DNA of 64,000 nucleotides, from assembly GCF_947498515.1 (NCBI RefSeq), contig NZ_CANMKO010000011.1, forward strand, positions 62,001 through 126,000, given 5' to 3'. Below the pieces are notes generated by a model. It was given only the letters and a program-made list of their open reading frames with translations, had not been told where the DNA came from and made no database searches. Positions 1,487 to 60,018 of the stretch are shown in pieces. Both the position numbers and the translations under genes were made by a program. Each line of letters starts with the position of its first letter. Position 1 is the stretch's first letter. The stretch comes from an uncultured Pelagimonas sp. (GTDB lineage Bacteria; Pseudomonadota; Alphaproteobacteria; Rhodobacterales; Rhodobacteraceae).

Positions 1487-2971
1487 TTAGTAATCGTCGC
1501 CGCCGCCTTGCCAGGTTTTGGCCAAGTTGCCAAAGCGGGTGAATTGCGCCTCAAAGGACAGTTCAACCGTACCAATTGGGCCGTGACGCTGTTTGCCGAT
1601 AATCACTTCGGCCTTGGCATGCAGGCGCGACATGCGTTCCTGCCATTCGGCCATGCGATCCAGCTGATCTTCGGAAGGTTTTTCACGTTCCGCATAGTAT
1701 TCTTCGCGGAACACGAACATAACCACGTCCGCATCCTGTTCGATTGATCCCGATTCACGCAGGTCCGAAAGCTGGGGGCGTTTATCGTCGCGGCTTTCCA
1801 CCTGACGCGAGAGCTGGGACAGGGCGATGACCGGAATGTTGAGCTCTTTGGCGATTGCCTTGAGACCCATGGAGATTTCTCCGATCTCCTGAACCCGGTT
1901 ATCGGATGTGCCACGCAAGAGCTGGAGATAGTCAACGATAACAAGGTCTAACCCGTGGGTCCGTTTCAAACGGCGGGCCCGTGCGGCGACCTGTGAAATC
2001 GGCAGGGCGGCGGTGTCGTCGATATAAAGCGGGCAGGCCTCGAGCGTTTTGGCGGCTTCGACGAACTTGCGAAACTCGGCCTCGTCCATGTCACCTTGGC
2101 GGATCTTGTGGGACGAAATTTCCGACGCTTCGGCGAGGATACGGCTGGCGAGCTGTTCGGCGCTCATTTCCAAGCTATAAAACGCGACGATGCCGCCATC
2201 AACGGTGCCCTCGGTGCCATCGGGGCGGATGCCCTTTTTATAGGCTTTGGCGACGTTAAACGCGATGTTGGTGGCCAGCGAGGTTTTGCCCATAGACGGA
2301 CGTCCGGCAAGGATGAGCAAATCCGACGGGTGCAAACCGCCCAATTTGCCGTCCATATCGATCAACCCGGTAGAGACCCCGGCCAAACCGCCCTCACGCT
2401 GATAGGCGGCATTGGCGACGTTGACCGCATCGGTGACGGCCTTGAGGAAGGAGACAAAGCCGCTTTCGACCTGGCCCTGTTCGGCCATATTATAAAGCGC
2501 TTGCTCGGCTTCGATGATTTGCTCTTTGGGGTTGGAGTCGACGTCAACCTTGGCGGCTTTGGATGAGATGTCTTTGCCCAAGCGGATCAGATCGCGGCGC
2601 ACTGCGAGATCATAAATCATCTGGGCGTATTCACGCACCGCAAAGCTTGACACCGAAGAGGCGGCGAGACGGGCGAGATAGGCGGGGCCGCCGAGCTCTT
2701 TGAGGCCTTCGTCATCTTCCATAAACGCCTTGAGCGTCACCGGAGAGGCGAGGTTATTCTTGGAAATCCGCGCGGCGGCAACTTCGTAGATGCGGGCGTG
2801 GACCGGGTCATAGAAATGCGATGCGCCAATGATCGCGGTCACTTTGTCAAAGACCTCGTTGTCGGTCAGAATAGCACCCAAAAGCTGCTGTTCTGCCTCA
2901 ATCGAATGCGGCATGGTTTCCGCGGCTTCGACCTGAATCCCGGTTGGATTAATGGTTGTGACTTCGTTCAT
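1487..2971 (-). CDS. dnaB: replicative DNA helicase DnaB
   Basis: This 494-residue protein is the hexameric 5'-3' helicase that unwinds DNA at the replication fork. The N-terminal domain starts MPHSIEAEQQLLGAIL after a short leader; the RecA-like domain has Walker A AGRPSMGKTS, the LVIVDYLQLL Walker B segment and LSQLSRQVESR. The ATG at 2971 is chosen because a GGGGGA site lies just upstream and the family usually begins shortly before PHSIEAEQ; an upstream in-frame start would add 37 unconserved residues. It follows pyrE on the same strand after 225 bp that contain a consensus DnaA box. Confidence 0.96.
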   Translation of the reverse strand: MNEVTTINPTGIQVEAAETMPHSIEAEQQLLGAILTDNEVFDKVTAIIGASHFYDPVHARIYEVAAARISKNNLASPVTLKAFMEDDEGLKELGGPAYLARLAASSVSSFAVREYAQMIYDLAVRRDLIRLGKDISSKAAKVDVDSNPKEQIIEAEQALYNMAEQGQVESGFVSFLKAVTDAVNVANAAYQREGGLAGVSTGLIDMDGKLGGLHPSDLLILAGRPSMGKTSLATNIAFNVAKAYKKGIRPDGTEGTVDGGIVAFYSLEMSAEQLASRILAEASEISSHKIRQGDMDEAEFRKFVEAAKTLEACPLYIDDTAALPISQVAARARRLKRTHGLDLVIVDYLQLLRGTSDNRVQEIGEISMGLKAIAKELNIPVIALSQLSRQVESRDDKRPQLSDLRESGSIEQDADVVMFVFREEYYAEREKPSEDQLDRMAEWQERMSRLHAKAEVIIGKQRHGPIGTVELSFEAQFTRFGNLAKTWQGGGDDY

Positions 2972-3050
2972 GCGGTCCCCCAACTGCCCCGAAAATTGCC
3001 CTTGCGCGGTTGGTATCAACATGCGCGGGCGAGGGGAAATTGTATATTTA

Positions 3051-3059
3051 TGTGGATAA
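3051..3059 (-). promoter_or_regulatory. consensus DnaA box upstream of dnaB
   Basis: TGTGGATAA on the plus strand reads TTATCCACA on the minus strand, a perfect match to the DnaA consensus box. It lies 80 bp upstream of the dnaB start in an AT-rich stretch (TGTATATTTA next to it). Only one box is evident, so an origin is unlikely; DnaA control of dnaB is an inference. Confidence 0.55.
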
Positions 3060-3196
3060 GCTGTGGGCCGATCCTCGCGCATTATTTTGCGGTCAGGATC
3101 GGCTTTGTGTCAACATATAGTATGATGTCGTGGGCGTCGTGACATGCGTGCCACAGACCGCACGCCAATCAAAGCGCTATACGTTTGAGACCTGAA

Positions 3197-3874
3197 TTAG
3201 GTCTTGTTGGCCTCTTGCCACTCACGCGGGGCGTTCAAGAAGGCCTCGACCTGAGCGAGTTTTTCATCCGAGAAATTGCCCATTTCACGCGCCGCTTCAA
3301 GCACATCCCACCAAGTGCAGAGGTGATGGAGTTCAACCCCATGATCGCCGAGCGTTTTGATGGTTTCGGGGAAAATCCCGTAGTAGAAAATCACCGCCGT
3401 ATGGGCGCAGGTGGCACCGGTTTCGCGGATCGCATCCACAAAGGAAAGTTTGGAGCCGCCATCGGTGGTGAGGTCTTCGACCAACAACACGCGTTCACCT
3501 TCGGTCATGACGCCTTCGATGCGGGCATTGCGGCCATAGCCTTTGGGTTTTTTGCGCACATAGGTCATGGGGAGGGCCATGCGTTCCGCCACCAACGCCC
3601 CAAACGGGATGCCCGCAGTTTCGCCACCGGCAACATTGTCAAAGGCCTCAAACCCGGCGTTGCGCATCACGGTGACGGTGAGAAAATCCATCAAAGTGGT
3701 GCGGATACGGGGGAAAGAGATCAGCTTGCGACAGTCTATATAGACCGGCGATGGCAGGCCCGAGGCCAGTTTGAACGGCTCGTCGCCCATGAAGTGTACC
3801 GCTTCGATTTCCCACAACATGCGGGCGGTCAACTTGGCCATTTCTTCGGCGGATGGGTAAGATGTAGGGATCAT
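3197..3874 (-). CDS. pyrE: orotate phosphoribosyltransferase
   Basis: PyrE (225 residues) makes orotidine monophosphate from orotate and PRPP in pyrimidine synthesis. The PRPP-binding signature [14 protein letters not shown] and the substrate segment [22 protein letters not shown] are clear. The ATG at 3874 has an AGGAGAG site about ten bases upstream; the longer reading frame to 3913 adds an unconserved leader. It is the second gene after pyrC on the same strand (130 bp gap holding a palindrome), so the two probably share a transcript. Confidence 0.95.
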
Positions 3875-3971
3875 GGCAGCAACTCTCCTATTTGGCCTCG
3901 CTTTAGCGCACAACAGAACGGGGCAAAACCCCGGCCTGCCGTCTTCTTTCCAAAAATCGATTGGTGGGATT

Positions 3972-4004: not shown

Positions 4005-5039
4005 TCAACCGACGCGCCAATGCAGCGGCATCATCGGGTCAAACACGGTCACATCGCCGTCGGGCGTGGCGATTTTGTCGGGATAGGTGACGGGCTCGCC
4101 CTTGGTCAAAACCATCTCCGCCTCGTTTGGTTCAAGCCCGTAAAAGGCGGGACCATGCAGAGAGGCAAACCCTTCGAGCTTGTCCAAAGCGCCTTCTTGT
4201 TCAAAGACTTCGGCGAGAATGCTCATGGTGTTGGTGGCGGTAAAGCAACCGGCACAGCCACAGGCGCTTTCCTTGAGGGGATCGATATGTGGGGCGCTGT
4301 CGGTACCTAGGAAAAAGCTCGGGTCACCGGAGGTGGCGGCCGCGCGCAGGGCTAGGCGGTGTTCTTCGCGTTTGGCGACGGGCAGGCAGTAATAATGTGG
4401 CTTGATCCCACCAACCAGAATGGCGTTGCGGTTGATGACCAAATGGTGCGTGGTGATCGTTGCGCCGAGGTTGTCACCACCGGAGCGGGCGTAATCGACC
4501 CCCTGTTTGGTGGTGATATGTTCCATGATCACCCGCAGCTCGGGAACCGATGTCCGCAGCGGATCAAGGATGCGGTCGATAAACACCGCCTCGCGGTCAA
4601 AAATATCAATATCGGCGTCAACCACTTCGCCATGGACACAGAGCGGCAGGCCGATCTCGGCCATGGTTTCCAGCACCGGGCGGACTTTGTCGAAGTTGGT
4701 GACACCGCTGGCGGAATTGGTTGTCGCGCCCGCCGGGTAAAGCTTGACCGCGCTAATCAAACCTTCTTCTTTGGCGCGCTTTACATCCGCCGGATCGGTG
4801 TCTTCGGTCAGATAGAGCGTCATCAGGGGCTGAAAATCGCTGCCCTCGGGCAGGGCGGCCATGATCCGGCCCTTGTAGGCGGCGGCGTCATCGCGGGTGA
4901 CAACCGGCGGAATCAAGTTTGGCATGATGATCGCGCGGCCAAAATGGCGGGCGGTTTCAGGGGCAACGGCGTTCAGCATTGCGCCATCGCGCAGATGCAG
5001 GTGCCAGTCATCGGGGCGGCGGAGTGTGATCTGTTGCAT
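4005..5039 (-). CDS. pyrC: dihydroorotase
   Basis: This 344-residue protein is a PyrC-type (class II) dihydroorotase, closing carbamoyl-aspartate to dihydroorotate. Metal-binding [10 protein letters not shown] is at the N terminus; [20 protein letters not shown] and LGTDSAPH follow in the order typical of the zinc amidohydrolase barrel. Length is normal for the short bacterial class. It precedes pyrE on the same strand. The ATG at 5039 begins [13 protein letters not shown]; its ribosome site is weak. Confidence 0.95.
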
Positions 5040-5120: not shown

Positions 5121-6065
5121 TTAGTCGTGATCCGCGACTTGATCGTCTTCGGCCTCAAGCGCGGCCAGACGGCGGCGGAAGCGCGGGGCATGCATGCGCG
5201 ACACGACGTTTTGACACAAAAGCCGCGACAGCTCATCGCGACCATCCGCATCGGTTCGGGCCAATAAACGGCGCAGATAGGGCGGGTGGTCACGGCGTGC
5301 GCGTAGCATTTGCGCAAAGGCCAAACGGTCAAGGCGATCTTCGGCCACCGCCGTCAAAAGCGACGGCAAAAGGTCAAGCGCGATCAGGTCGGTTTGCAGC
5401 GCGCTCCCCATATAGGGCATGCGGTGACGGGTGACATTGCGCCGTTCAAACAGCGCCGAATGCATCGCATCCATCTGTTCACGCGGGTCATAAAGGACAT
5501 GGGCGTGATGGGCGGCGTCGATCATATCGGGGGCAAAGCCATAACGCGAGGTGAAATCGCGGCGGCGTAACTCCGGAAAGCGGTCGTCCCATTCGGTGAC
5601 ACGCGGATCAAGCGTGGCTTGTGGTTGCAGCATGAGCACGCGGGCGCCGGGCGAGGCGACGGAATAGGCGGCGGCGGCATAACCACAGGGGCCCGCGCCG
5701 TAAAAGATGACATTTTCGAATTCATCGAAAAAACCGTCATCCAGCAATTGATCGAAAAAGCCGAAAACCCGGTGATCGCGGAACCAAGTGTCGCCGTGGC
5801 TTAGGACCGAGAGCGAAGACCAGCCGTTGCTGCGCACCATGTCAAAGCCGATGGGCGTGCGGGTTGTTGATAGCGCTTCGATCCCGGACATGGATTCAAA
5901 GCTTACCAGCAGGGTGTCGCCATCTTCGACAAAAATCCCGGCATGATGTTTTCCGAGCGGCTCAGAAAACCCCTTGTTGTCCCCAATGTTGCGCAGCTGC
6001 GCCAGCCAATCGGCGCGCGACAGACGGCTTAGATCCGGGGGAAAACTGGTTTTCTTGTGTGCCAT
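5121..6065 (-). CDS. alpha/beta-hydrolase-like protein without nucleophile (conserved in Rhodobacterales)
   Basis: The function of this 314-residue protein is not known. Homologues I remember are often named phosphoadenosine phosphosulfate reductase, but no PAPS-reductase P-loop (SGGxDS type) is visible. Instead FYGAGPCGYAAAAY (121-134) followed by LQPQATLDPRVTEWD matches the nucleophile-elbow region of alpha/beta hydrolases of the GxSxGGYAA...SPQ type, with the Ser position changed to Gly125. The ATG at 6065 is preferred because GAGGA lies about ten bases upstream. It follows the glycosyltransferase/sulfotransferase operon on the same strand after 127 bp. Confidence 0.7.
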   Translation of the reverse strand: MAHKKTSFPPDLSRLSRADWLAQLRNIGDNKGFSEPLGKHHAGIFVEDGDTLLVSFESMSGIEALSTTRTPIGFDMVRSNGWSSLSVLSHGDTWFRDHRVFGFFDQLLDDGFFDEFENVIFYGAGPCGYAAAAYSVASPGARVLMLQPQATLDPRVTEWDDRFPELRRRDFTSRYGFAPDMIDAAHHAHVLYDPREQMDAMHSALFERRNVTRHRMPYMGSALQTDLIALDLLPSLLTAVAEDRLDRLAFAQMLRARRDHPPYLRRLLARTDADGRDELSRLLCQNVVSRMHAPRFRRRLAALEAEDDQVADHD

Positions 6066-6192: not shown

Positions 6193-7239
6193 TCACTCGG
6201 GGCGGTTTGCCTTGGCGCGCGTGGCGTGAGCGGCCAAAAACTGGGCCGCGTCGAGCGGGACGGGCCGCGCCGGTGGGGTCATCAAAAGCCGGGCAAATAG
6301 AGCGCGGTTTGGTTCATCCTGTAACAGGGTTTCAAAGCGTGACTTGCGCCATGCCACCGCCTTGTCATGCAGGTCAGATAGGGTTGGATCAGCGCCCAGA
6401 TCAGCGCGCTTTTGGGCGACATTGGGTAACGATTGGACGGTTTTGTCGGCTTCGCTGCACCAATTGCGTTCGACCCAGTAATCCATTCCAAGCACATGGT
6501 CGGAATGAACAGCGCGGCCCCGATCGGCCTTGAGCACATAGCTTTCCATTGCGCCAAGGGGGTAGTGATTGAGTTGGGCCAGACCATAATTGGGGCGGCC
6601 ATAGTTGGAAAAAATCCGGCGGTTGCGAAATTGCGCATCCAATTCGCGCCCCTCGCAATCAAACCAACGCGCGGTGTCGACACGATCCGGGTCGGGATTG
6701 CGCGGGCGATGCACACCAAGTTTGCGATAGATGCCGTTGTTTTTATACAGGGTTTTGAACATCGCCGCGCGCCATGGCCAATGCATGATCACCGGCGCGG
6801 CCTTGGTGAACTGCTCGGTCACCGGGCGATCGTCAAAGTGCACAATGCCGGCATTGCCAAAGAGCCGCCACGTCAAGGTAATGGCGTCGGCATCGGGGAG
6901 CGCGTCGATTAAGGCGGGTAGGGTGCGATCCCCGGTATGGATGTTGACGAATTCATCAACGTCCAGCGACAACAGCCAATCGGAGCGTTTGACCACGTCG
7001 AGCTTGTCGGCCTTTTTCAAGCCGGTGAATTGAATGCCGCCTTTGTCATAGGGGCCATCGTTGCGAATATGGGTGACATGGCCGAGCTGTTCTAGACGGT
7101 CCAACATGGCGTCGGTGCCATCGTCACACTCGTTGGAAAGCGCCACCACATGGGTGACGCCACAGGCCAGATGATGGGCGATCCAATCGAGCAAGAAGGC
7201 CGCTTCGTTGCGGACACATAGAACAGCGGTGATGTTCAT
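6193..7239 (-). CDS. PF13704-type glycosyltransferase (family 2-like)
   Basis: This 348-residue protein begins MNITAVLCVRNEAAFLLDWIAHHL, the start of the Glyco_tranf_2_4 fold, and carries the DxD-type motif SLDVDEFVNIH near residue 95. NHYPLGAMESYVLKADRGR in the C-terminal half is shared with the other two glycosyltransferases of this operon. It should transfer a sugar from an activated nucleotide sugar in the cytoplasm; donor and acceptor are unknown. The ATG at 7239 begins the conserved fold; the reading frame further upstream is unconserved. It is the last gene of the five-gene leftward run starting at 12033. Confidence 0.85.
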   Translation of the reverse strand: MNITAVLCVRNEAAFLLDWIAHHLACGVTHVVALSNECDDGTDAMLDRLEQLGHVTHIRNDGPYDKGGIQFTGLKKADKLDVVKRSDWLLSLDVDEFVNIHTGDRTLPALIDALPDADAITLTWRLFGNAGIVHFDDRPVTEQFTKAAPVIMHWPWRAAMFKTLYKNNGIYRKLGVHRPRNPDPDRVDTARWFDCEGRELDAQFRNRRIFSNYGRPNYGLAQLNHYPLGAMESYVLKADRGRAVHSDHVLGMDYWVERNWCSEADKTVQSLPNVAQKRADLGADPTLSDLHDKAVAWRKSRFETLLQDEPNRALFARLLMTPPARPVPLDAAQFLAAHATRAKANRPE

Positions 7240-7282
7240 GACGGCTCGCTTTGGGCCGCCGGGTGGAGCCGTAAAGCAGGCA

Positions 7283-7984
7283 TCACCAACCCTTGCGAAA
7301 GGTGACAACCTTGGCTTCTGAGGCCTTGGGGAAATAGGTCAACCCAGCCTTGTGCATGGCGTCAAAGACCTTTTGCACACCCTCTTGGCCAATCCATTGC
7401 GGATGCAATTCGATGATGGCGACGCGAATGCCCGTCCAATCGGCAGCCGGGAGCAACATGGCTTCGGCCCCTTCGATATCGCAGACCAAAACGTCGGGTT
7501 TCAGGTCGTCCAGAACCGGGGCAATGGCGTGTTTTTCGATTTCGACGATGTCTTTGACGGTGTCCGGTTCGGCGTTAAAGTCCATCGACGAGCCGAGAAA
7601 GTTTTCGCGGATGTAGAATTCGACCGGGTCCCCAGCCTCGGGCGAGAGGAGGGCATTACGCACCTCAACGTTTTTGACGTCATTGGCCTCGTGGACCGAA
7701 TGGATATAGGGGATCAGCGTCGGGTTGGCCTCATAGCTGATGACCCTTTCGACCTTTTTCTTGACCGACAACAGGGTCGACATATAGCCAAGCCCGCCGC
7801 CGAGTTCCAAAACCTTGTCGCCCTCGCGCACAACACGCATGACCGCGTCACATTCCTTGCGCTCATAGGTGCCTTCGCGCAAAGCCCCGCGCACACGACC
7901 AGTGGTCAGTTGCGGGTGTTTGGGGATTTTCATCCCGCGCGAGCGGATAAAAGGTTTGCGTTCCGTCACAGCACTTCCGTCCAT
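7283..7984 (-). CDS. FkbM family methyltransferase
   Basis: This 233-residue protein is an S-adenosylmethionine-dependent methyltransferase of FkbM type. The SAM-binding motif VLELGGGLGYMS is at 58-69, VISYEANP follows as motif II, and DVLVCDIEGAEAMLL is the usual FkbM acidic segment. Such enzymes often O-methylate sugars in surface glycans. The ATG at 7984 lies one base after the TGA of the upstream fusion gene, indicating translational coupling. The substrate is not known; the neighbours suggest a glycan. Confidence 0.87.
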   Translation of the reverse strand: MDGSAVTERKPFIRSRGMKIPKHPQLTTGRVRGALREGTYERKECDAVMRVVREGDKVLELGGGLGYMSTLLSVKKKVERVISYEANPTLIPYIHSVHEANDVKNVEVRNALLSPEAGDPVEFYIRENFLGSSMDFNAEPDTVKDIVEIEKHAIAPVLDDLKPDVLVCDIEGAEAMLLPAADWTGIRVAIIELHPQWIGQEGVQKVFDAMHKAGLTYFPKASEAKVVTFRKGW

Positions 7985-7985
7985 G

Positions 7986-10364
7986 TCAGGTCTCCAAATC
8001 GAGGGCGAGCGCATAGGCCACCCGCTCGGTTTCTGTCAGTTCTAGTTGCAACGCCTGTTGGTACAGGTCTTCAAATTCCGGCATGCCGTGCAATTCCGTG
8101 GCCTTAGCGAGATGCCAGTCCAGACCGCTTGCGTGCCATTTGGCCAGCTCACTATCCGCCATCAGCCGATCAAATTCCGCCTGCATCCGGGGCAAGTTGC
8201 GTTTGATCGTCAGATCGCGATGCACCGACCAATCCATGCGAATCCAATAGTTTAACCCGATAGAGCGGTCCACATGCAGGGCACGGCCACGTTGACGTTT
8301 GATCAGATAGCTTTCGGCGCTCCGCAGGGCGTAGTGGTTCAGCTGGATCAGATCATAGCCGATGTTCTTCTTGGAATTGCGCCAGCCGTTCATCAAGGCA
8401 TCTTTGGTCATATCCTGACCCGATCCGTTGACCCATTTGACCTTTTTCTCGGCCCCGTCCTCAAGCTTGTTGGGTCGGTGGCAGGAGATTTTCGCATAGG
8501 CCCCGGTGTTCTTGAACATGGTCTTGAACCCCCAGACCGTATGCGGCTTGGGGCAGAATTTCGGGGCGCAGGTGTCGAATTGTTCGAGCACAAACTTGTC
8601 TTTGAGATGGGTGACGCCGTTGTAACCAAACAACCGCCACGTCATCGCAACATTGGTGGCATCGGGCACGCGTTCAAAGAAATCGGCCAAAGTGCCATTG
8701 CCACAGCGCACATTGACGAACTCATCAACGTCGATATGCGCAATCCAGTCGGCGTTTTTGATCACCGGTTCCTTGAGTGAATTATCAAGCGCGTGTTGTT
8801 GCGGCGAGTTGCCCGACCAATTGTCGTTGTTGCGGTGCTGAACCACGCCCATCTCTTGCAAACGATCAAGGATCTCGGTGGTGCCGTCGCTGCAATCATT
8901 GGTGTAAACCAAGATGTTATCGAAACCCATGGCGCGGTGATAGGCGACCCATTCGACGATATAGGGGGCTTCGTTTTTCATGCAGCCAACGATGACATTG
9001 CCGCTGGAATTCTTGGGCAATTTGCGCGGTTCAATCGGAGTATATGGGCCGGCGAGCTCTTCTTCGTTGACCCGGCCCATTTTGTTATGGGGGGCAAAGG
9101 TTGAGTTTTGCAGTTTCTCAAAATTCTGGATCGCCTCGGGCGTCATGACGCGGCGCGCGGCTGGCGAAAGTTTCGCCTCGATCCCCTTTTCCTGAGGCGG
9201 GGTGGGGCTCGGCGTTGTGGTGCCGTTCAGTTCGGCCAGATCGGCGGCTTTGTTGGCCATTTCTTCTTTGGTGGCTTGATTGATGCGCCAGCGGAACGCC
9301 ATGAGGTATTGCGTGGCGCGAAACCCGCGGGTCGGATCGGCCTCTTGCCAATCGGCTTGTGGCGCATCGGGGGCAAGCAGGTCGGCATTAAGACCGGGAT
9401 GCAAGGCACAAAGATCGGCTATGTCATCGGCGAAATGATCAGAGAGGGCATGTAGCGAACCCGCAGCAATCGGATCACCGGGCACTTTGATTTCGCCAAG
9501 GAATTTTCGCCACAATTGCCGGGGCAAGATGACGTCCTTTTTGGCCAAAAGCCGCAGCGCCGCGTCGTTGAAAAGCCGCGAGCGGGTTTGCCACGCGGCC
9601 GAGGGCAGGCCGGGCATGTCTTCGGGGATCACCTTGCCGATGGTTGTCGAGATGTCAAAAGCGGCGCGCAGCTCTTCGGGGGCTGCGTTGGAGAAAAAAC
9701 GCGGCATGTCAACGGCGCGAAAGCGCACCGATCCGGCCCCAAAAACATCTTCCCAAAAATTCTGAAGCCGTTTGAAATCAAGCCAGTAACACGCGCCTTG
9801 GATTTCCCCAAACTGCCCGGCCTGAGGGTCGGGTACGGGGCGGGTGGCAAGGGCGGCGTCCCAAAAACTTGGGCTTTCAAGACAATCAAGTTCTTGTTGA
9901 AGGGACCCGGTGCGCCCCTCGATCAGCTGACCGGCATAACGGCGGATCAATAGGCGCGCCGGATCATCAAGATGGGCAACGATGCGAATGTCATCGGACA
10001 GCGGTGCTAGAATTGCGCGCAAGCGTTGCAGTTCGGAGGCGGTACACAGGGATGAGCCAAATTGATGCGCCGACAGGATCAGCGTATCGGGGTTGTGGCG
10101 TTCAACCTCGGCCTGCAATTGGCGCGTCACGTCATCGCGCAATGAGGCCTGTTTTTCACCAGTGATAAAGCCGCGATTGTAACGCAGGCTATCGACGTTT
10201 TCGGGATCGGTGACGGCCAGAAACAAGCGAGTGTGATTGCGTGCGCCGGGGCTTCGGGCATAGAGAACCCCCTTGCCAAGCATCTGTTCACGCTTGGAAT
10301 CCAAGACGCGTTGCAAGCGATCGCTGCTTGTTCCGTCGGGGCCGATATGAACGAAAATCTTCAT
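7986..10364 (-). CDS. fusion: sulfotransferase-like domain + PF13704-type glycosyltransferase
   Basis: This 792-residue protein has two parts. Residues 1 to about 370 resemble P-loop sulfotransferases (start MKIFVHIGPDGTSSDRLQ), but the PAPS-binding loop lacks the lysine of the usual HKTGTTS. A linker rich in T, P and S (about 380-450) follows. Residues 455-760 are a glycosyltransferase: NVIVGCMKNEAPYIVEW, then HIDVDEFVNV, then NHYALRSAESYLIKRQRGR. The ATG at 10364 overlaps the stop of the sulfotransferase gene upstream (TGATG). The C-terminal domain looks intact; the N-terminal one may be a non-catalytic partner or binding module. Confidence 0.82.
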   Translation of the reverse strand: MKIFVHIGPDGTSSDRLQRVLDSKREQMLGKGVLYARSPGARNHTRLFLAVTDPENVDSLRYNRGFITGEKQASLRDDVTRQLQAEVERHNPDTLILSAHQFGSSLCTASELQRLRAILAPLSDDIRIVAHLDDPARLLIRRYAGQLIEGRTGSLQQELDCLESPSFWDAALATRPVPDPQAGQFGEIQGACYWLDFKRLQNFWEDVFGAGSVRFRAVDMPRFFSNAAPEELRAAFDISTTIGKVIPEDMPGLPSAAWQTRSRLFNDAALRLLAKKDVILPRQLWRKFLGEIKVPGDPIAAGSLHALSDHFADDIADLCALHPGLNADLLAPDAPQADWQEADPTRGFRATQYLMAFRWRINQATKEEMANKAADLAELNGTTTPSPTPPQEKGIEAKLSPAARRVMTPEAIQNFEKLQNSTFAPHNKMGRVNEEELAGPYTPIEPRKLPKNSSGNVIVGCMKNEAPYIVEWVAYHRAMGFDNILVYTNDCSDGTTEILDRLQEMGVVQHRNNDNWSGNSPQQHALDNSLKEPVIKNADWIAHIDVDEFVNVRCGNGTLADFFERVPDATNVAMTWRLFGYNGVTHLKDKFVLEQFDTCAPKFCPKPHTVWGFKTMFKNTGAYAKISCHRPNKLEDGAEKKVKWVNGSGQDMTKDALMNGWRNSKKNIGYDLIQLNHYALRSAESYLIKRQRGRALHVDRSIGLNYWIRMDWSVHRDLTIKRNLPRMQAEFDRLMADSELAKWHASGLDWHLAKATELHGMPEFEDLYQQALQLELTETERVAYALALDLET

Positions 10365-11005
10365 CACGCCGCCCCTCGTGAGGCCCCTTTGGCCCCGCTA
10401 TTCACATTCATTTTTCCCCACCATGGCAGGTCCAACCCGAGATGAGATGACAGCCGTTGGCGCGCATCCTTGGCCGACATCGGCAGTTCCAGATAGCGCG
10501 GATCATCGCCAAAGATGTCGCGCAGCATGTCGTAATGCCCCTCAATCCAACGCACGCGATCCGCGTCGCTTTCGCCGTAGCCCATCGGCAGGCCGGGGAT
10601 GGCCCCGGTTGGTAAACGGTCGGTGCCAAGATTGTTCCAGCGCCGCATACTATCCGAGGTTTCAGACGCCGGGCGCAAAGTGGCAACAAAAAGCACATCG
10701 GGCCGGGCAAGGCGCATCGCCTTGATCAAGGCATAGTCGCATTGCGGCCAAAGCGAGGTGTCGCCTTTGAGCACACTGATTTCCGACAAAGCGTCGTAAA
10801 TATCGAGGTATTTGAAGGGGTCCCCTTCGAAATAGCCGTTGTACAATTGCCGCCCAACAAAGGTGCCGCCAAGCCCCGGTTCGCGGGTGTGAATGCGGCG
10901 CACCTTGTGATCGGCCACCCGCCAGCCCGCCTTTTCAAGCGCGAAGGCAAAGGAGGTGGTGCCGGTTTTGGGCAGGCCGAGATTGACACATTTCACCCGC
11001 TTCAT
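10364..11005 (-). CDS. small sulfotransferase
   Basis: This 213-residue protein has an intact 5'-phosphosulfate loop, NLGLPKTGTTSFAFAL (8-23), including Lys13, and a later segment VLFVATLRPASETSDSMRRW that fits the 3'-phosphate-binding strand and helix. Sulfotransferases move sulfate from PAPS to a hydroxyl or amino group. Its ATG overlaps the stop of the upstream glycosyltransferase (ATGA) and its own TGA overlaps the next start, so it is tightly coupled in the operon. A sugar acceptor is likely from context but unproven. Confidence 0.83.
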   Translation of the reverse strand: MKRVKCVNLGLPKTGTTSFAFALEKAGWRVADHKVRRIHTREPGLGGTFVGRQLYNGYFEGDPFKYLDIYDALSEISVLKGDTSLWPQCDYALIKAMRLARPDVLFVATLRPASETSDSMRRWNNLGTDRLPTGAIPGLPMGYGESDADRVRWIEGHYDMLRDIFGDDPRYLELPMSAKDARQRLSSHLGLDLPWWGKMNVNSGAKGASRGAA

Positions 11006-12033
11006 GAGGCCAATCCCAGTTCTAGCATCAGCTCATATTCGCCGGGCGGGTAGGGGGGCAGTTCGCGCAAATGGCCATAAAGCCCCGCATAGGTTGGATC
11101 GGCCATCAACGCGTCGCGTTTTTCGCAATGCAGGCGCACGCACGTGTCATGCAGCGGCCCAATCACCGGATCGGCGCGAAAGGCCTCCATCGCGGCGGTC
11201 AGATCGGGCGCATACCGCAAGATCGAGCGATCTTCGAAAGACGGATCATTGCGCTCTTTCCAATAGGTGTCGTCAAAATTGCGGTTCTCGCGGTTGACGT
11301 CGCCGCGGTCATTTTTGACCAGATAGCTGTCGAGTGAGCGCAGGGCATAGTGATTGAGCGTCGCAAATTCGCGCGCGCCATGGGCGGGGAATTTGCGGAT
11401 ACGGCGCGGGTTGGCCGCCACGAGGAATTTATGCGGCACCGGACGGCCAGCGCCATCGGTCCAGCTTGGCCTTTTGTTTTTCGGAAGTTTCTCGCGGAAA
11501 AACGGACGATGCGCGCCGAAATATTGCAGCGGAAAATCGCTTCGGACCAAGGATTTCACCTCAATCGCGGTCTCGCCACACCACAGATCAGGGTTGTGGC
11601 TCTGTAGGAACTGTTCGATCACCGGGCGGTCTTCGAAATCTTCCACATCGCAATTGGCAAAGAACTGAAACGTCACCGAAATACAGTGCGGGTTGCCACA
11701 GGCGTCGATCAGCGCCGGGATCGTGTGGTTGCCGACATGAATGTTGAGGAATTCGTCAACATCCGCCACCCAGACCCAATCGGCGTTTTTAACCACATCC
11801 TGCTTGGCGGCGTCTTTGAGCGCCTCCATCTGATAATTGCGCCCCTGCGCCGGGTTCGGCAGATGGGTGACCCCTCCCTGTTCCGCCAAAGCATCCAGCA
11901 ACACATCGGTGCCATCGGTGCAATCGTTTGAATAGAATAGAAAATCCGTCACACCCAAGAGACGGTTAAAAGCGATCCATTCCAAAAGGAACGGCCCCTC
12001 ATTCTTGACACAAGTGACGGCCGTTATGCGCAT
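11002..12033 (-). CDS. PF13704-type glycosyltransferase (first gene of operon)
   Basis: This 343-residue protein begins MRITAVTCVKNEGPFLLEW, with VADVDEFLNIHVGNHT as the DxD region and NHYALRSLDSYLVKNDRGD in the C-terminal half. It is closely related in plan to the genes at 6193 and to the C-terminal part of the fusion at 7986. The ATG at 12033 is chosen for the AAAGGGGG site seven bases upstream; a frame extending to 12075 would add an unconserved leader. It heads the leftward run of five genes. Confidence 0.86.
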   Translation of the reverse strand: MRITAVTCVKNEGPFLLEWIAFNRLLGVTDFLFYSNDCTDGTDVLLDALAEQGGVTHLPNPAQGRNYQMEALKDAAKQDVVKNADWVWVADVDEFLNIHVGNHTIPALIDACGNPHCISVTFQFFANCDVEDFEDRPVIEQFLQSHNPDLWCGETAIEVKSLVRSDFPLQYFGAHRPFFREKLPKNKRPSWTDGAGRPVPHKFLVAANPRRIRKFPAHGAREFATLNHYALRSLDSYLVKNDRGDVNRENRNFDDTYWKERNDPSFEDRSILRYAPDLTAAMEAFRADPVIGPLHDTCVRLHCEKRDALMADPTYAGLYGHLRELPPYPPGEYELMLELGLAS

Positions 12034-12336
12034 GATCCGCCCCCTTTTTGCAGATGCACGCGCGTTATAGCGCATCCTCGCAAATCAGAGGTTACGATCA
12101 TAGGGCTTGCGCCTAAGTTATATGTCGCGGTCAGGCCATGGGCCTGCGCGTTGATGTTTGGCATGTCTGCTCACCCGCCGTCGTTCCGGGTTTTCCCGGT
12201 TTTTATAATGCGAATCATCGCATTCCCCATGCAAGCCGTCAATGCAAAGCCTTCGTTTTCGATGGCTTGTGCGACTTTGGCGCTATTGACCGCGCCCGCC
12301 CATGCGGGCATCCGAAGGGGGCGAGGGAGGATTTTC
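12034..12336. other. intergenic region between divergent operons
   Basis: About 300 bp between the glycosyltransferase operon (left) and moxR (right). It should hold both promoters, but I cannot fix either. An open frame reads through from 12151 into moxR and includes a signal-peptide-like stretch, which I regard as fortuitous. Nothing else is recognised. Confidence 0.4.
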
Positions 12337-13257
12337 ATGGGCATTTCAACATCAATTCCGGCATCCATTGACGAGGTGCAAAACCAGCTGGCCAGCACCG
12401 GATATGTCTGTGGCCGCGCTTTGGCGACGGTTGTGTTCTTGTCATTGCGCCTTGGACGCCCCTTGTTTCTTGAGGGCGAGGCCGGGGTTGGCAAAACCGA
12501 GATTGCCAAGGCATTGGCCTTGATGTTGAACCGCAAGCTGATCCGGTTGCAATGTTACGAGGGGCTTGATGCCTCTTCGGCGGTTTATGAATGGAACTTT
12601 CCGGCGCAAATGATCGCCATCCGCACCGCCGAAGCACAGGGTGGGGCCGATCGCGGGTCTTTGCAGACCGAATTGTTTTCCAAAGACTTTCTGATCGAAC
12701 GCCCGCTGCTTGAGGCCATGCGCCCGGATGAAAACGGCGCGCCGATCCTATTGATCGACGAATTGGACCGCACAGATGAGCCGTTTGAGGCCTTCCTGCT
12801 CGAAGCTTTGTCGGATTTTCAGGTTACAATTCCTGAGATCGGCACGATCAAAGCCCCCGAGCCGCCCATCGTGATTTTGACATCCAACCGGACCCGCGAA
12901 GTGCATGATGCACTGAAACGGCGCTGTTTGTATCACTGGGTGGATTACCCGGACTTTGAGCGCGAAGTCGAAATTCTAACCGCGCGCGCCCCCGAAGTGG
13001 CCGAAAACCTGTCGCGTGAAATCGTCAGCTTTGTGCAAAAGTTGCGCACCGAAGACCTGTTCAAGAAACCGGGCGTCGCCGAAACGATTGACTGGGCGAA
13101 ATGCCTCTTGGCCTTGGATGTGGTCAACCTGTCACCAGAAATGATCAGCGACACCTTGGGCGCGATCCTGAAGTATCAGGACGACATCTCGAAAATCCAA
13201 GGCTCAGAGGCCAAGCGGATTTTGGACGAAGCAAGTGCGGCGCTAGAACCGGCGTGA
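12337..13257 (+). CDS. MoxR-family AAA ATPase (CoxD-like)
   Basis: This 306-residue MoxR-type AAA+ ATPase has Walker A LEGEAGVGKTE (45-55), Walker B ILLIDELDR, sensor-1 region VILTSNRTRE and the typical MoxR phrase CYEGLDASSAVYEWNF. MoxR proteins are chaperone-like and usually work with a vWA partner to mature an enzyme or insert a metal. The partner is the next gene. The ATG at 12337 has a GGGAGG site upstream. No carbon monoxide dehydrogenase or other obvious client gene is adjacent. Confidence 0.9.
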   Translation: MGISTSIPASIDEVQNQLASTGYVCGRALATVVFLSLRLGRPLFLEGEAGVGKTEIAKALALMLNRKLIRLQCYEGLDASSAVYEWNFPAQMIAIRTAEAQGGADRGSLQTELFSKDFLIERPLLEAMRPDENGAPILLIDELDRTDEPFEAFLLEALSDFQVTIPEIGTIKAPEPPIVILTSNRTREVHDALKRRCLYHWVDYPDFEREVEILTARAPEVAENLSREIVSFVQKLRTEDLFKKPGVAETIDWAKCLLALDVVNLSPEMISDTLGAILKYQDDISKIQGSEAKRILDEASAALEPA

Positions 13258-13315
13258 TGTTGGCCGTGATGCGACATAGGATCGGGGATGGGGGCAGCGC
13301 CCCCTATGGTGGGTG

Positions 13316-14566
13316 ATGGCTGAATACATCCCATTGGAATTGCCAGAAAATCCGAGACTTGCGCAGAATATCATCCATTTCGCGCGGGCGTTGCGCCGTG
13401 CTGGCTTGCCGATTGGACCGGGGCGGGTGATTGATGCGATCCGCGCCGTGGAAGCCGCCGGGTTTTCGGATCGGATGGATTTTTACTGGACGTTGCATGC
13501 CTGTTTTGTAAATCGCCCCGAACATCGGGTCATTTATGCGCAGGTTTTCCGGCTCTATTGGCGCGATCCTCGATACCTCGAACATATGATGTCGATGATG
13601 CTCCCTGCGGTGCGCGGTGTGCAGGAAGAAAAGCTTGCGCAATCGGGTGAAAAACGCGCGGCGCAGGCTTTGCTGGGCGATGAGATGCCCGATATTCCCG
13701 AGGGTGAGCAGGAAGAGGACGGCACCGAGATCGAGGTCGACGCCTCGATGACGATTAGCACCGAGGAAAAGCTCAAATCGCTCGACTTTGAACAGATGTC
13801 GACCGAGGAGGTCGCGCAAGCCAAACGGATGTTGGCGCGGCTGACCTTGCCGGTGAAACCCTTTGCCTCGCGGCGTTCTATCGCGGCCAAGCGCGGTTTG
13901 CGCACCGATTACCGCAAGACCATGCGCAACGCCTTGCGTCAGGGCGGCGAGATTCACAGCATTTCTCATGCCAAGCCGCGTTTGCGTTGGCCCAATTTGG
14001 TGGTGCTTTGCGATATTTCCGGCTCGATGAGCCAATATAGCCGCATGGTTCTGCATTTCCTGCATGCTGTCGCCAATGAAAAAGGCGCAGGTTGGGCCAA
14101 AGTCCACGCCTTTACCTTTGGCACGCGGTTGACGAATATCACCCGCCATCTGGCGACGCGCGATGTCGATGCGGCGCTGAAATCCGCCGGGGCCGAGGCG
14201 CAGGATTGGGAAGGTGGCACGCGGATTGGCGACTGCATTCATGAGTTCAACAGAGATTGGTCGCGTCGGGTGATGGGGCAGGGGGCCGTTGTTTTGTTGA
14301 TCACGGATGGTTTGGACCGTGGTGAGCCAGCGGATTTGGCGCATGAAATGCAACGCCTGCAATTGTCGTCGCGGCGCTTGATCTGGCTTAACCCGTTATT
14401 GCGGTGGGATGAATTTGCGCCCAAAGCCTCGGGCATTCGCACCATGTTGCCGCTTGTTGATAGTTTCCGCGCCGGGCATTCGATCCAATCGCTTGAAGAC
14501 CTGGCAGCGGTGATTTCGAGCCATGATGATGCCGGTGAAAAGGCGCGTTTGATGTCGCTGCTTTAG
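13316..14566 (+). CDS. vWA domain protein, CoxE type
   Basis: This 416-residue protein has an N-terminal helical part, an acidic linker (about 121-145) and a C-terminal von Willebrand A domain with a complete MIDAS motif DISGSMS (233-239), GTRIG as the second loop and LLITDGLDRG as the third. CoxE-type vWA proteins pair with MoxR ATPases, and moxR lies 58 bp upstream. The ATG at 13316 is used; a GTG sits directly before it. It likely acts in the cytoplasm on the same unknown client as the ATPase. Confidence 0.88.
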   Translation: MAEYIPLELPENPRLAQNIIHFARALRRAGLPIGPGRVIDAIRAVEAAGFSDRMDFYWTLHACFVNRPEHRVIYAQVFRLYWRDPRYLEHMMSMMLPAVRGVQEEKLAQSGEKRAAQALLGDEMPDIPEGEQEEDGTEIEVDASMTISTEEKLKSLDFEQMSTEEVAQAKRMLARLTLPVKPFASRRSIAAKRGLRTDYRKTMRNALRQGGEIHSISHAKPRLRWPNLVVLCDISGSMSQYSRMVLHFLHAVANEKGAGWAKVHAFTFGTRLTNITRHLATRDVDAALKSAGAEAQDWEGGTRIGDCIHEFNRDWSRRVMGQGAVVLLITDGLDRGEPADLAHEMQRLQLSSRRLIWLNPLLRWDEFAPKASGIRTMLPLVDSFRAGHSIQSLEDLAAVISSHDDAGEKARLMSLL

Positions 14567-30561: not shown

Positions 30562-30607
30562 AATATTGCCCGAAGATAAAGTACACTTCGGCGAGGGGAG
30601 GCGCGCG

Positions 30608-33600
30608 ATGAGCACTCAAAAAGTTTCACTGAACGACCGTTTTGATCTAAGCAAAGATCAAGTTTTGCTTAATGGCACACAGGCTCTGGTGCGTTTGATG
30701 CTCACCCAAGCCGCCCGTGACAAGGCCGCGGGTCTTGATACCGCTGGCTATGTCACCGGGTATCGCGGATCGCCGCTTGGTGCGGTTGATCTTCAGATGA
30801 CCAAGGCGGAAAAATTCCTAAGCGCCGCGCAGGTTAAGTTTCAAGAAGGTCTTAACGAAGACCTGGCCGCCACCGCATTATGGGGCGCGCAGCAGGCGGA
30901 ATTGCGCGGCGAGGGCAAACATGACGGTGTGTTTGGCCTTTGGTACGGCAAGGGGCCGGGGGTTGATCGCTCGGGCGATGTGATGCGTCATGCCAATATG
31001 GCGGGCACCTCGCAATATGGCGGTGTGTTGATGGCCATGGGTGACGACCACACTGGCGAAAGTTCGACCGTGCTGCACCAATCGGAATGGGCGCTTGTTG
31101 ATGCCTATATGCCGGTGGTGTCGCCGGCAGGTGTGCAGGAAATCATCGATTATGGCATTTATGGTCTGGCACTATCGCGCTATGCGGGAGTCTGGGTTGG
31201 GTTGAAAACCATGAAGGACACGGTTGAAGCCACAGCCGTTGTTGATGGGCGTCCAGAGCGGATGCAGGTTGTTTTGCCGAGTGATTTCGAAATGCCCGAG
31301 GGCGGGTTGAACATCCGACTTGGTGACACGCCCCATGCGCAAGAAACGCGCATGATTGATTACAAACGGTTCGCCGCCGAGGCGTTTAGCCATGCCAACA
31401 AAATGGACAAACGCATGTGGGGCAAGCCGGGTGCCAAGATCGGTTTTGTTTCGGCGGGCAAGAACTGGCTCGATCTGCAACACGCGATGTCGTTGCTTGG
31501 TGTTGATGAGGGTGAGGCCGAACGGCTTGGCATCACCACCTATAAGGTCGGGCAAACATTCCCCTTGGATATGAAGGGCTTTAATGAGTGGGCCGATGGC
31601 CTTGATCTCATTGTTGTTATTGAAGAAAAACGTAAACTGATCGAGGTGCAGATCAAAGAGGCGATCTTTGACAACCGCAAGGGGCGGCGGGTTTACGGAT
31701 GGTACAAGGGGGGCACCGGCAACCTTGGCCGCGAAGAATTGTTCCCAACCCGCGGGGCGCTTGACCCGATTTGGATCGCACAAAAGCTTGGTCAGATTCT
31801 GATCGAAGAGGGGCGCGGCACCGACGCGATCCAAGGTGGGTTGACGCAGTTGGCGGAAATCACCCGCGCCGATAATGCCGAAGAAATCGCTACACGGACG
31901 CCGTGGTTCTGTTCGGGTTGCCCTCACAACAGCTCGACCAAAGTGCCCGAAGGGTCGCGCGCCTATGCCGGGATCGGCTGTCATTATATGGTGCAATGGA
32001 TGGACCGCGAGACCTCGGGCTTTACCCATATGGGGGCCGAGGGCGCAAATTGGGTCGGCGAAGCACCGTTTTCCAATACCGAACATGTGTTCCAAAACCT
32101 TGGCGATGGCACCTATAACCATTCTGGCGTTTTGGCTATCCGCTCTGCTTTGGCAGCGGGCACCACAATGACGTATAAAATCCTTTATAATGACGCGGTG
32201 GCCATGACCGGCGGCCAGCCTAACGAAGGTGGGCTAAGTGCGCCGCGCATTGCCGCCGAAGTGATGGCTATGGGGGTGCGCACTCTCGCTGTGGTTTACG
32301 ACGAAAAAGAGGACGTTGATCAAAGCCTTTTCCCAAAGGGGTTGGAGTTCTTTGAACGGGCAGAATTGCCGAATGTTCAGGCGCGCATGGCCAAGACCAC
32401 AGGCGTGTCGGTGATCCTATATATCCAGACCTGCGCGGCCGAAAAACGCCGCCGTCGCAAGCGCGGGTTGTTCCCCGATCCGGACAAGCGGGTGTTTATC
32501 AACACCGATGTCTGCGAGGGCTGTGGCGATTGCGGGGTGCAATCCAACTGTGTGTCCATCGTGCCAGCCGAGACCGAATTGGGTCGCAAGCGAGCGATTG
32601 ATCAATCGTCCTGCAACAAGGATTTCTCATGCGTGAACGGCTTCTGCCCGTCCTTTGTGACGGTTGAGGGCGGCACGGTGAAAAAGGCCGCGACCCGTGA
32701 ATTGGAACTTCCTGATCTAAGCGAGCCGCAATTGCCCACGATCAACGGCACCCATAACGTGGTGATCACCGGGGTTGGCGGCACCGGAGTTGTGACCATC
32801 GGCGCGGTTCTGGCACAGGCGGCGCAGGTCGATGGCAAAGGCGCGGCGATGATGGAAATGGCCGGGTTGGCGCAAAAGGGCGGGGCGGTGCATATCCATC
32901 TGCGTCTGGCCAATAAACCGTCTGATATCAGTGCGGTACGTGTTGCCACCGGCGAATGTGATGCGCTGATTGGCGGCGATTTGGTGGTCTCGGCGGGGGC
33001 GAAAACCCTTGGTCTGACAAGCACGGGCCGGACCGGCGCGGTGGTCAACAGCCACGAGATTGTCACCGGGGCCTTTACGCAGGAACCGAATTTCGCATTG
33101 CCATCCGACCGCCTGCAATTGGCGTTACAAGCGCGGATGCAGGACAAGGTGGCCTTGTTTGATGCCTCGGACCTGGCCAAGGCGACGTTGGGCGACAGCA
33201 TCTTTTCCAACATGATGATCCTTGGTGCGGCGTGGCAAAACGGGTTGGTCCCGCTAAGCCATGAGGCGATCACCACGGCGATTGATCTGAATGGCGCAGC
33301 GGTTGAGAAAAACCTACGCGCCTTTGAGATTGGGCGTTGGGCGGCGGAATTCCCAAGCGAAGCAGCGGATTTTGTCACGCCAAACGTGGTTGATATGCCC
33401 AAGAGCCTTGAGGACAAGATCGCCTATCGGCGTGATCATCTTGTGGCTTATCAGGGCAAGGGACTGGCCAAGCGTTACGACAAGTTGCTGGCGCAGATTG
33501 GTGATGATGCTTTGAAAGAAGCGGTGGCCAAGGGCTATCACAAGCTCTTGACCTATAAGGATGAATACGAGGTGGCACGTCTTCATTTGGACAGCCATGC

Positions 33601-59927: not shown

Positions 59928-60018
59928 AAAATTTCGATTGGCGAAGCTTGGGCTTTCGCCTATCTGTTAGCGAGGCTTGGCGCGAGGCGCGTGTCAGGGC
60001 GCGTAATTGGGGGACGAC

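Follow-up and report, generated by a model that had tools for sequence, protein, structure and literature searches.

A conserved roseobacter glycosyltransferase operon with two predicted pseudoenzymes, a candidate system for a sulfated envelope glycan

The DNA analysed here (the window, 64,000 nucleotides) comes from an uncultured Pelagimonas sp. of the Rhodobacteraceae (assembly GCF_947498515.1, contig NZ_CANMKO010000011.1, positions 62,001 to 126,000 of the forward strand) and is part of contig C11 of a 4.6-Mb genome (G000; loci, genomes and contigs are cited below under L, G and C labels). One strand of it carries six consecutive genes, here called gtA, stB, gtC, mtD, gtE and n4, which encode three glycosyltransferases, a sulfotransferase-like protein, a methyltransferase and a protein of alpha/beta hydrolase fold (Table 1). 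Two parts of this set, the N-terminal domain of the gtC fusion protein and the whole of n4, have the predicted folds of enzymes and have lost the catalytic residues of those enzymes. Both are conserved across roseobacter genera and are under purifying selection.

Table 1. Coordinates of the operon genes, of the domains and residue discussed, and of the flanking landmarks (positions in the window)
Feature	Position	Strand	Description
gtA	12033-11002	minus	first gene; GT92-like GT-A glycosyltransferase, 343 aa, DVDEF
stB	11005-10364	minus	small sulfotransferase-like protein, 213 aa, P-loop NLGLPKTGTT
gtC	10364-7986	minus	fusion protein, 792 aa from ATG; 793 aa from alternative GTG start at 10367
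gtC N-terminal domain	9360-10364	minus	residues 1 to ~335; predicted sulfotransferase fold without PAPS-binding P-loop
gtC C-terminal domain	8094-9017	minus	residues ~450-757; GT92-like GT-A glycosyltransferase, DVDEF
mtD	7984-7283	minus	FkbM-family methyltransferase, 233 aa; optional member
gtE	7239-6193	minus	GT92-like GT-A glycosyltransferase, 348 aa, DVDEF
n4	5121-6065	minus	sixth gene; predicted pseudo-alpha/beta-hydrolase, 314 aa (P0006)
n4 codon 125 (Gly)	5691-5693	minus	nucleophile-elbow position; Ser in relatives with intact triad
MoxR/CoxD-like AAA ATPase	12331-13257	plus	divergent upstream landmark outside the system; AAA_5 match
CoxE-like gene	13313-14566	plus	divergent upstream landmark outside the system
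pyrC	4005-5039	minus	downstream landmark outside the system; name read from translation
pyrE	3197-3913	minus	downstream landmark outside the system; name read from translation
dnaB	1487-3082	minus	downstream landmark outside the system; name read from translation

A first-pass annotation of the window had described five tightly coupled genes on the minus strand at 6193-12033, and their arrangement was confirmed in the sequence: gtA and stB overlap by ATGA, stB and gtC overlap by TGATG, and mtD starts one base after the stop codon of gtC. The end point given for the operon was too short, however, as the conserved set reaches position 5121 with the addition of n4. The remaining gaps are 43 bases between mtD and gtE and 127 bases between gtE and n4. 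A pattern scan for promoters and terminators gave no excess over shuffled sequences (3 versus 3.0 and 10 versus 9.4 expected). The two divergent upstream neighbours are presumably coxD-like and coxE-like genes, the names resting on our own reading.

The arrangement was then compared across a named set of 80 loci. These are the 80 best of 371 gtC relatives confirmed in GTDB contigs, and close relatives are over-represented among them. The order coxE-coxD (divergent), gtA-stB-gtC-(mtD)-gtE-n4, pyrC-pyrE-dnaB recurs across roseobacter genera. Among these loci gtA was found in 79, stB in 77, gtC in 80, mtD in 56, gtE in 78 and n4 in 74, some of the absences being contig ends; the corresponding counts for the landmarks are 76 for coxD-like, 69 for coxE-like, 70 for pyrC, 67 for pyrE and 66 for dnaB. 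The overlaps are also kept, with four bases shared by gtA and stB in 65 of 76 loci, and one base (58/77) or four bases (15/77) shared by stB and gtC. Because order and overlaps are conserved in this way, the arrangement is not due to chance. In L035-L057, a group of 23 loci with more variety, stB was not found in five, mtD in seven, gtE in two and n4 in two, one of the n4 cases being a contig end. The presence counts in the two sets therefore indicate that the glycosyltransferases and n4 form the core, and that sulfation and methylation form the variable part. Conserved synteny in the Rhodobacterales, which had been proposed as a check, was thus found, with the genes kept together in order and not scattered.

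Beyond these loci, the first gtC search covered 121 genomes including our own (73 in the family and 48 outside it) and gave matches in 63, of which 61 lay in the family and only two outside (best E outside, 1.5e-14). In a sample of 395 family genomes with completeness of at least 95%, the gtC family was present at E 1e-40 or better in 300, many of them matching the glycosyltransferase half only. A single full-length gtC, defined as one match spanning residue 7 or earlier to residue 787 or later, was present in 96 of the 395 genomes among the matches listed (to about E 1e-102), and at least six more carry the halves in separate pieces. In G005, genes for UDP-glucose dehydrogenase and an epimerase border a related cluster, which counts in favour of the envelope-glycan account given below. 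On the Phaeobacter inhibens plasmid pPGA1_262 (L157, NC_018291.1, 173390-175663), a lone gtC-type glycosyltransferase gene lies two genes from dmdD without the other operon genes. Among the titles listed from the open-licence PubMed Central (PMC) literature, none concerned the operon; one genome paper among them (PMC5259889) mentions GT92.

Regional stability alone might keep unrelated genes together, in which case the products would act in different pathways. The gains and losses of stB and mtD fit such a functionally loose neighbourhood, as does the fact that the unrelated pyrC, pyrE and dnaB are nearly as conserved as the operon. This is nevertheless the least probable of the accounts weighed here, since overlapping junctions are kept in most loci and relatives of n4 adjoin GT92-type genes away from the operon locus as well (L058, L059, L062, L063 and L068).

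The first-pass annotation had placed three of the genes on one glycosyltransferase plan and had named mtD an FkbM methyltransferase, and profile searches bore out both assignments. PF13704 was above its cut-off in gtA (70.9 bits), gtC and gtE (77.8 bits), and PF01697 (GT92; cut-off 23 bits) matched all three proteins with 44.7, 41.1 and 32.1 bits for gtA, gtC and gtE, respectively. The DxD motif of GT-A enzymes, here D[VI]DEF, is present in 22 of the 22 gtC rows of alignment A1 and, in its strict form, in 77/79 gtA, 68/78 gtE and 79/80 gtC proteins of the named loci, some of the picked proteins being incomplete. mtD matched TIGR01444 with 40.1 bits (cut-off 37.7) and PF05050 with 26.8 bits (cut-off 22.7). 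The naming of stB as a sulfotransferase stood in part: its P-loop is intact, K[TS]GT[TS] being kept in 77 of 77 proteins and NLGLPK.GTT being invariant in 18 rows, but its Pfam score is below the cut-off. A gene for adenosine 5'-phosphosulfate (APS) kinase is present in our genome, and its product would supply the 3'-phosphoadenosine-5'-phosphosulfate (PAPS) for sulfation.

The gtC protein was modelled with AlphaFold2, which gave a mean predicted local distance difference test (pLDDT) of 84.2 and a predicted template modelling score (pTM) of 0.54; the latter value is too low to fix the relative placing of the two domains in the model. Residues 449-736 superpose on the plant galactan synthase GalS1 (VIA-align Z 17.5, 230 aligned residues, root-mean-square deviation (rmsd) 3.2). 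The likeness to GT92 enzymes, of which animal GALT-1 is also a member, thus comprises the PF01697 matches of all three glycosyltransferases and this superposition, whereas the operon enzymes are bacterial and gtC adds a domain of sulfotransferase fold that has no P-loop. For that domain, residues 1-332 superpose on the bacterial sulfotransferase 3rnl of Alicyclobacillus (Z 14.6, with 237 of its 247 residues aligned). Sulfotransferases that act on the N- and 3-O-positions of heparan sulfate follow with Z from 14.0 to 13.2 (human N-deacetylase/N-sulfotransferase NDST1, 1nst, Z 14.0; 3bd9, Z 13.9). In addition, hhalign matched the gtC profile to a protein from a related cluster in which KTGTS is intact (E 3.1e-6, 270 columns, probability 88%).

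In contrast to these PAPS sulfotransferases, the N-terminal domain of gtC does not have the P-loop lysine at the expected position in any of the 80 named loci or of the 22 A1 rows, and the residues found there are highly varied. The region after this position, which holds the 3'-phosphate contacts in known enzymes, is also altered in A1. As judged from the model and the alignment, the domain has a predicted sulfotransferase fold and is probably no working sulfotransferase. The possibility that gtC is a bifunctional glycosyltransferase-sulfotransferase was rejected on the missing lysine. Deeper relatives (of the L058-L070 type) have the same glycosyltransferase domain joined to a different N-terminal domain; the idea that the latter is a dead glycosyltransferase gave hhalign E-values of 0.009 and 0.013 but probabilities of only 4.4 and 3.3%. 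Sequence searches of the PDB with P0003, with A1 and with the n4 alignment A2 returned nothing useful, one match at E 0.029 being disregarded. At L052 (G011:C3, ~10262), in a three-contig assembly, a frame shift separates the two domains of gtC and is either real or an assembly error; this split was for that reason not used as proof that the domains work apart.

No credible family match was obtained for n4 in Pfam and NCBIfam. Its AlphaFold2 model, built from an alignment of 32 sequences, had a pLDDT of 94.7 and a pTM of 0.91. The top Foldseek matches were esterases and the capsule O-acetyltransferase of serogroup A (E 1.6e-6, with a template modelling score of only ~0.4). By VIA-align n4 matched best with 6oyc_B, which is chain B of the Gap123 glycosylation complex (Z 14.9, rmsd 3.5, 205 aligned residues), and the next were MPT51 (Z 13.7) and the serogroup A capsule O-acetyltransferase (Z 13.4). 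The predicted structure securely places n4 in the alpha/beta hydrolase fold, but gives a much less secure guide to its nearest function.

The nucleophile elbow of n4 in the operon proteins reads FYGAGPCGYAA, and glycine replaces the catalytic serine in 72 of the 72 aligned orthologues (74 in total, two of them gapped here). The wider family was compared in A2, which has 32 rows (20 operon rows and 12 hand-chosen other n4-type copies). Its seven rows with the serine all carry the histidine, the 25 rows without the serine all lack the histidine, and the aspartate is present in 32 of 32. Among the operon rows, the elbow residue is glycine in 19 and glutamate in L051, and none of the 20 has the serine or the histidine, while the aspartate is kept. 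Five copies left out of A2 (L052, L060, L066, L068 and L069) were read by eye: four have both serine and histidine, and the L052 orthologue has neither.

Relatives of n4 with serine and histidine occur in other clusters or beside the dead copy (L058-L060, L062-L064, L066-L070). In all four of L060, L064, L066 and L067, which have pyrC or coxD/E landmarks, a dead n4 follows gtE and a copy with the full triad lies nearby, and our genome has the dead copy only. The dead form of n4 thus looks old, and it looks to have been kept after loss of the other copy. In L058 and L063, read by eye, the triad-bearing relative shares one open reading frame with a glycosyltransferase-like part. The triad-bearing relatives tested fell outside all Pfam and NCBIfam families; a hint of the XcbB/CpsF capsule family for one of them (NCBIfam E 0.074, 12.3 of 125 bits) was far under the cut-off and was not used. 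Proteins of the n4 family on plasmids NZ_CP149927.1 and NZ_CP135444.1 are annotated as phosphoadenosine phosphosulfate reductase. This identity was rejected for n4, for which no such family appeared among the Pfam and NCBIfam matches and the model is an alpha/beta hydrolase; judged by the model, the annotation in some public records looks wrong. An n4-like stretch with 31.5% identity was also seen in a 16-kb Bacillus velezensis plasmid from sea water (NZ_CP061939.1, 13425-14168), possibly a contaminating or mislabelled record.

The fold matches of n4 raise the question of a relation to accessory Sec systems. We take chain B of 6oyc to be Gap2, of Asp2 type, from the title of the structure. Like Gap123 chain B, the Neisseria meningitidis serogroup A capsule O-acetyltransferase (6yuo/6yuq) has the fold of n4, and both proteins act on glycans beside glycosyltransferases; n4 differs from them by the absence of the catalytic serine and histidine and has about 10% identity to them. 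According to PMC5578698, streptococcal Asp2 acetylates N-acetylglucosamine and has a second role in export that does not need this catalysis, and its catalytic triad is uniformly conserved; PMC7948813 states that acetylation governs later glycosylation. The export role of Asp2 suggests that an alpha/beta hydrolase can play a non-catalytic role beside glycosyltransferases, which offers a parallel to n4 and not evidence of membership.

If the operon were itself a module for protein glycosylation and delivery, like GtfAB/Asp1-3 of the accessory Sec system, n4 would be non-catalytic as Asp2 can be in Streptococcus. The dispensability of Asp2 catalysis for export speaks for this, as does the rank of the Gap123 chain, 1.2 Z above the next row. 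The next fold matches are nevertheless close behind, Asp2 keeps its triad while n4 does not, and no Asp2 family was reported for n4 in Pfam (to E 5) or NCBIfam (to E 10), searches whose filters drop weak matches. Moreover, our genome has one SecY match and one SecA (SecA_DEAD) match and no SecA2/SecY2 pair. Membership of n4 in an accessory Sec system in our genome was rejected on these Sec counts and the lost triad, and a module of this kind is very unlikely.

To evaluate selection on the two dead parts, ratios of non-synonymous to synonymous substitution rates (dN/dS) were calculated within the genus, which includes two further genomes (gtC identity 81% in P. phthalicica and 76% in P. varians). 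The ratios are quoted against P. phthalicica only (dS 0.73-1.21), P. varians being near saturation, with a proportion of synonymous differences (pS) of up to 0.72. dN/dS was 0.129 for the N-terminal domain of gtC and 0.073 for n4, compared with 0.087 for the glycosyltransferase domain of gtC, 0.086 for gtA, 0.140 for stB, 0.093 for mtD and 0.142 for gtE. Both dead parts are under purifying selection, about as strict as in the live genes.

Such selection could also mean that the two parts are active with another mechanism or on another substrate, so that the pathway would have more catalytic steps than counted here. Other residues of both domains are invariant, n4 keeps its aspartate throughout A2, and nearly every operon row retains a D.MH-type motif. 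Against this, the serine and histidine of n4 were lost together, and the residues at the P-loop position of gtC vary freely among orthologues, as expected once cofactor binding has been lost. We regard activity of this kind as improbable.

We infer the substrate, the order of the reactions, the role of the dead parts and the route of export from these observations as follows, and consider the resulting account probable, if only just. The operon would encode a clade-conserved set of cytoplasmic enzymes for an envelope glycan that is sulfated before export, with the two pseudoenzymes as glycan-reading or scaffold parts. From family and motif, the three GT-A glycosyltransferases would add sugars; from its P-loop, stB would sulfate the chain with PAPS; and mtD would methylate it in about two thirds of the loci. 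By what is known of their families, the enzymes would act on the cytoplasmic side. The N-terminal domain of gtC and n4, judged by their lost residues, would no longer catalyse their old reactions. Their likeliest present role would be to bind the acceptor, which might be a glycan with sulfate or acyl groups, or to serve as a scaffold for the enzymes. Export of the completed chain would follow, possibly by a Kps transporter encoded elsewhere in the genome. The first-pass annotation had proposed a sulfated, methylated glycan or glycolipid. A sulfated product is supported by the glycosyltransferases with DxD motifs, the presence of stB in 77 of 80 loci and the APS kinase, but methylation can only be optional.

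A more specific form of the preferred account may be drawn by analogy. In it, the components would form a stable glycan-assembly complex in the cytoplasm, in which the dead sulfotransferase and the dead acyltransferase or esterase would act as glycan-reading subunits and check sulfation or acylation ahead of the next sugar transfer or of export. This would be a Gram-negative parallel, built from other parts, to partners of Asp2 type. We think this form rather unlikely.

Within the operon, no gene for export or for a polymerase was recognised. The missing flippase, polymerase and chain-length genes had been reported by the first-pass annotation and taken to mean that the operon may modify a glycan built elsewhere. 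What was drawn from this absence is weak, because ATP-binding cassette (ABC) transporter-dependent (Kps) capsule synthesis needs none of these genes beside the glycosyltransferases and our genome has Capsule_synth genes elsewhere. It carries Capsule_synth genes (PF05159, KpsC/S-type) at C8:26605-30797, a poly-export gene (PF02563) with them on C8, and at C23:4500-5123 an ABC2_membrane permease that is a candidate of kpsM type. By eye, kpsT-like, kpsE-like and cytidylyltransferase-like genes lie beside the C23 permease, and no glycosyltransferase was seen beside the C8 genes in a locus (L172) that ends ~1.1 kb after them.

Across the 395 family genomes, Capsule_synth genes were present in 298 of the 300 with the gtC family compared with 57 of the 95 without it (Fisher test, 2e-24, kinship ignored), and in all 96 with a full-length gtC among the matches listed compared with 259 of the 299 others (9e-6, kinship ignored). 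Contrasts within genera were also examined. Three of the listed genera have one member without Capsule_synth genes; in two of them that member is also without the gtC family at E 1e-40 (G053 and G069, the latter with two weak gtC-like matches, best E 8e-5), and in the third (G193) it keeps the family. Among pairs in which both members have Capsule_synth genes, 5 of 55 were discordant, giving p 0.036 from three visible cases, 20 of the 40 genomes that lack Capsule_synth genes being listed by name. These contrasts favour a link to the capsule without proving it, and the Kps capsule route is a plausible, though weakly supported, path of export for the product.

In an alternative to capsule export, the target of the operon would be the lipopolysaccharide core or a different lipid, which would receive sugars, sulfate and in some cases a methyl group, and the Kps capsule would be unrelated. 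A fixed chromosomal place and strongly conserved glycosyltransferases are seen more typically with core structures than with variable capsules, and kinship confounds the co-occurrence with Capsule_synth genes. On the other hand, no lipopolysaccharide gene was seen among the identified neighbours, part of which were tested, and in two of the three within-genus contrasts the member without Capsule_synth genes is also without the gtC family at E 1e-40. Decoration of lipopolysaccharide is possible, though we do not expect it.

Several observations weigh against the preferred account of a sulfated, exported envelope glycan with two non-catalytic parts. stB scored 19.6 bits against PF17784 (Sulfotransfer_4), under the cut-off of 22.8. 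In L057, one of the 22 A1 rows, a lysine lies one residue away from the P-loop position of the gtC domain, and the loss of known catalytic residues is compatible with another chemistry. n4 may have its own promoter, to judge from the gap before it here and from a spacing to gtE of more than 100 bases in 47 of 74 loci. The operon and the Capsule_synth genes lie on separate contigs (C11 and C8), and Capsule_synth genes are present in 355 of the 395 genomes overall, so that the confounding by kinship bears on this account as well. Finally, known regions for Kps capsule synthesis are usually variable and kps-linked, and a fixed, unlinked operon is unlike them; such an operon would suit a conserved primer, linker or core glycan better than a capsule repeat. 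PMC11666461 describes capsules in which dedicated transferases make a separate linker.

Sulfated capsular polysaccharides are reported from other marine bacteria, Vibrio sp. KMM 8419 (PMC11641403) and Cobetia marina (PMC11766843). The likeness to them would lie in the marine host and a sulfated polysaccharide, and in the roseobacter operon no export or polymerase gene was recognised. Roseobacters are widespread in the sea, and the glycans on their surface can be expected to influence how they meet algae, phages and particles. With one fixed operon in many genera, a shared and probably sulfated glycan would become accessible through a single genetic locus. Furthermore, two conserved pseudoenzymes, together with triad-bearing relatives of n4 at the same place in other genera, allow a clean test of how dead enzymes are retained as binding or scaffold parts.

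Two other regions of the window were recorded. On the plus strand at 30566-34027, a 1153-aa protein that combines a POR domain with DUF6537 is, by reading, of indolepyruvate oxidoreductase type. On the minus strand at 57321-59792, an 823-aa von Willebrand A protein has a long C-terminal part with weak, unrelated profile matches only, and a uvrA-type gene (60007-62889, plus strand) adjoins it.

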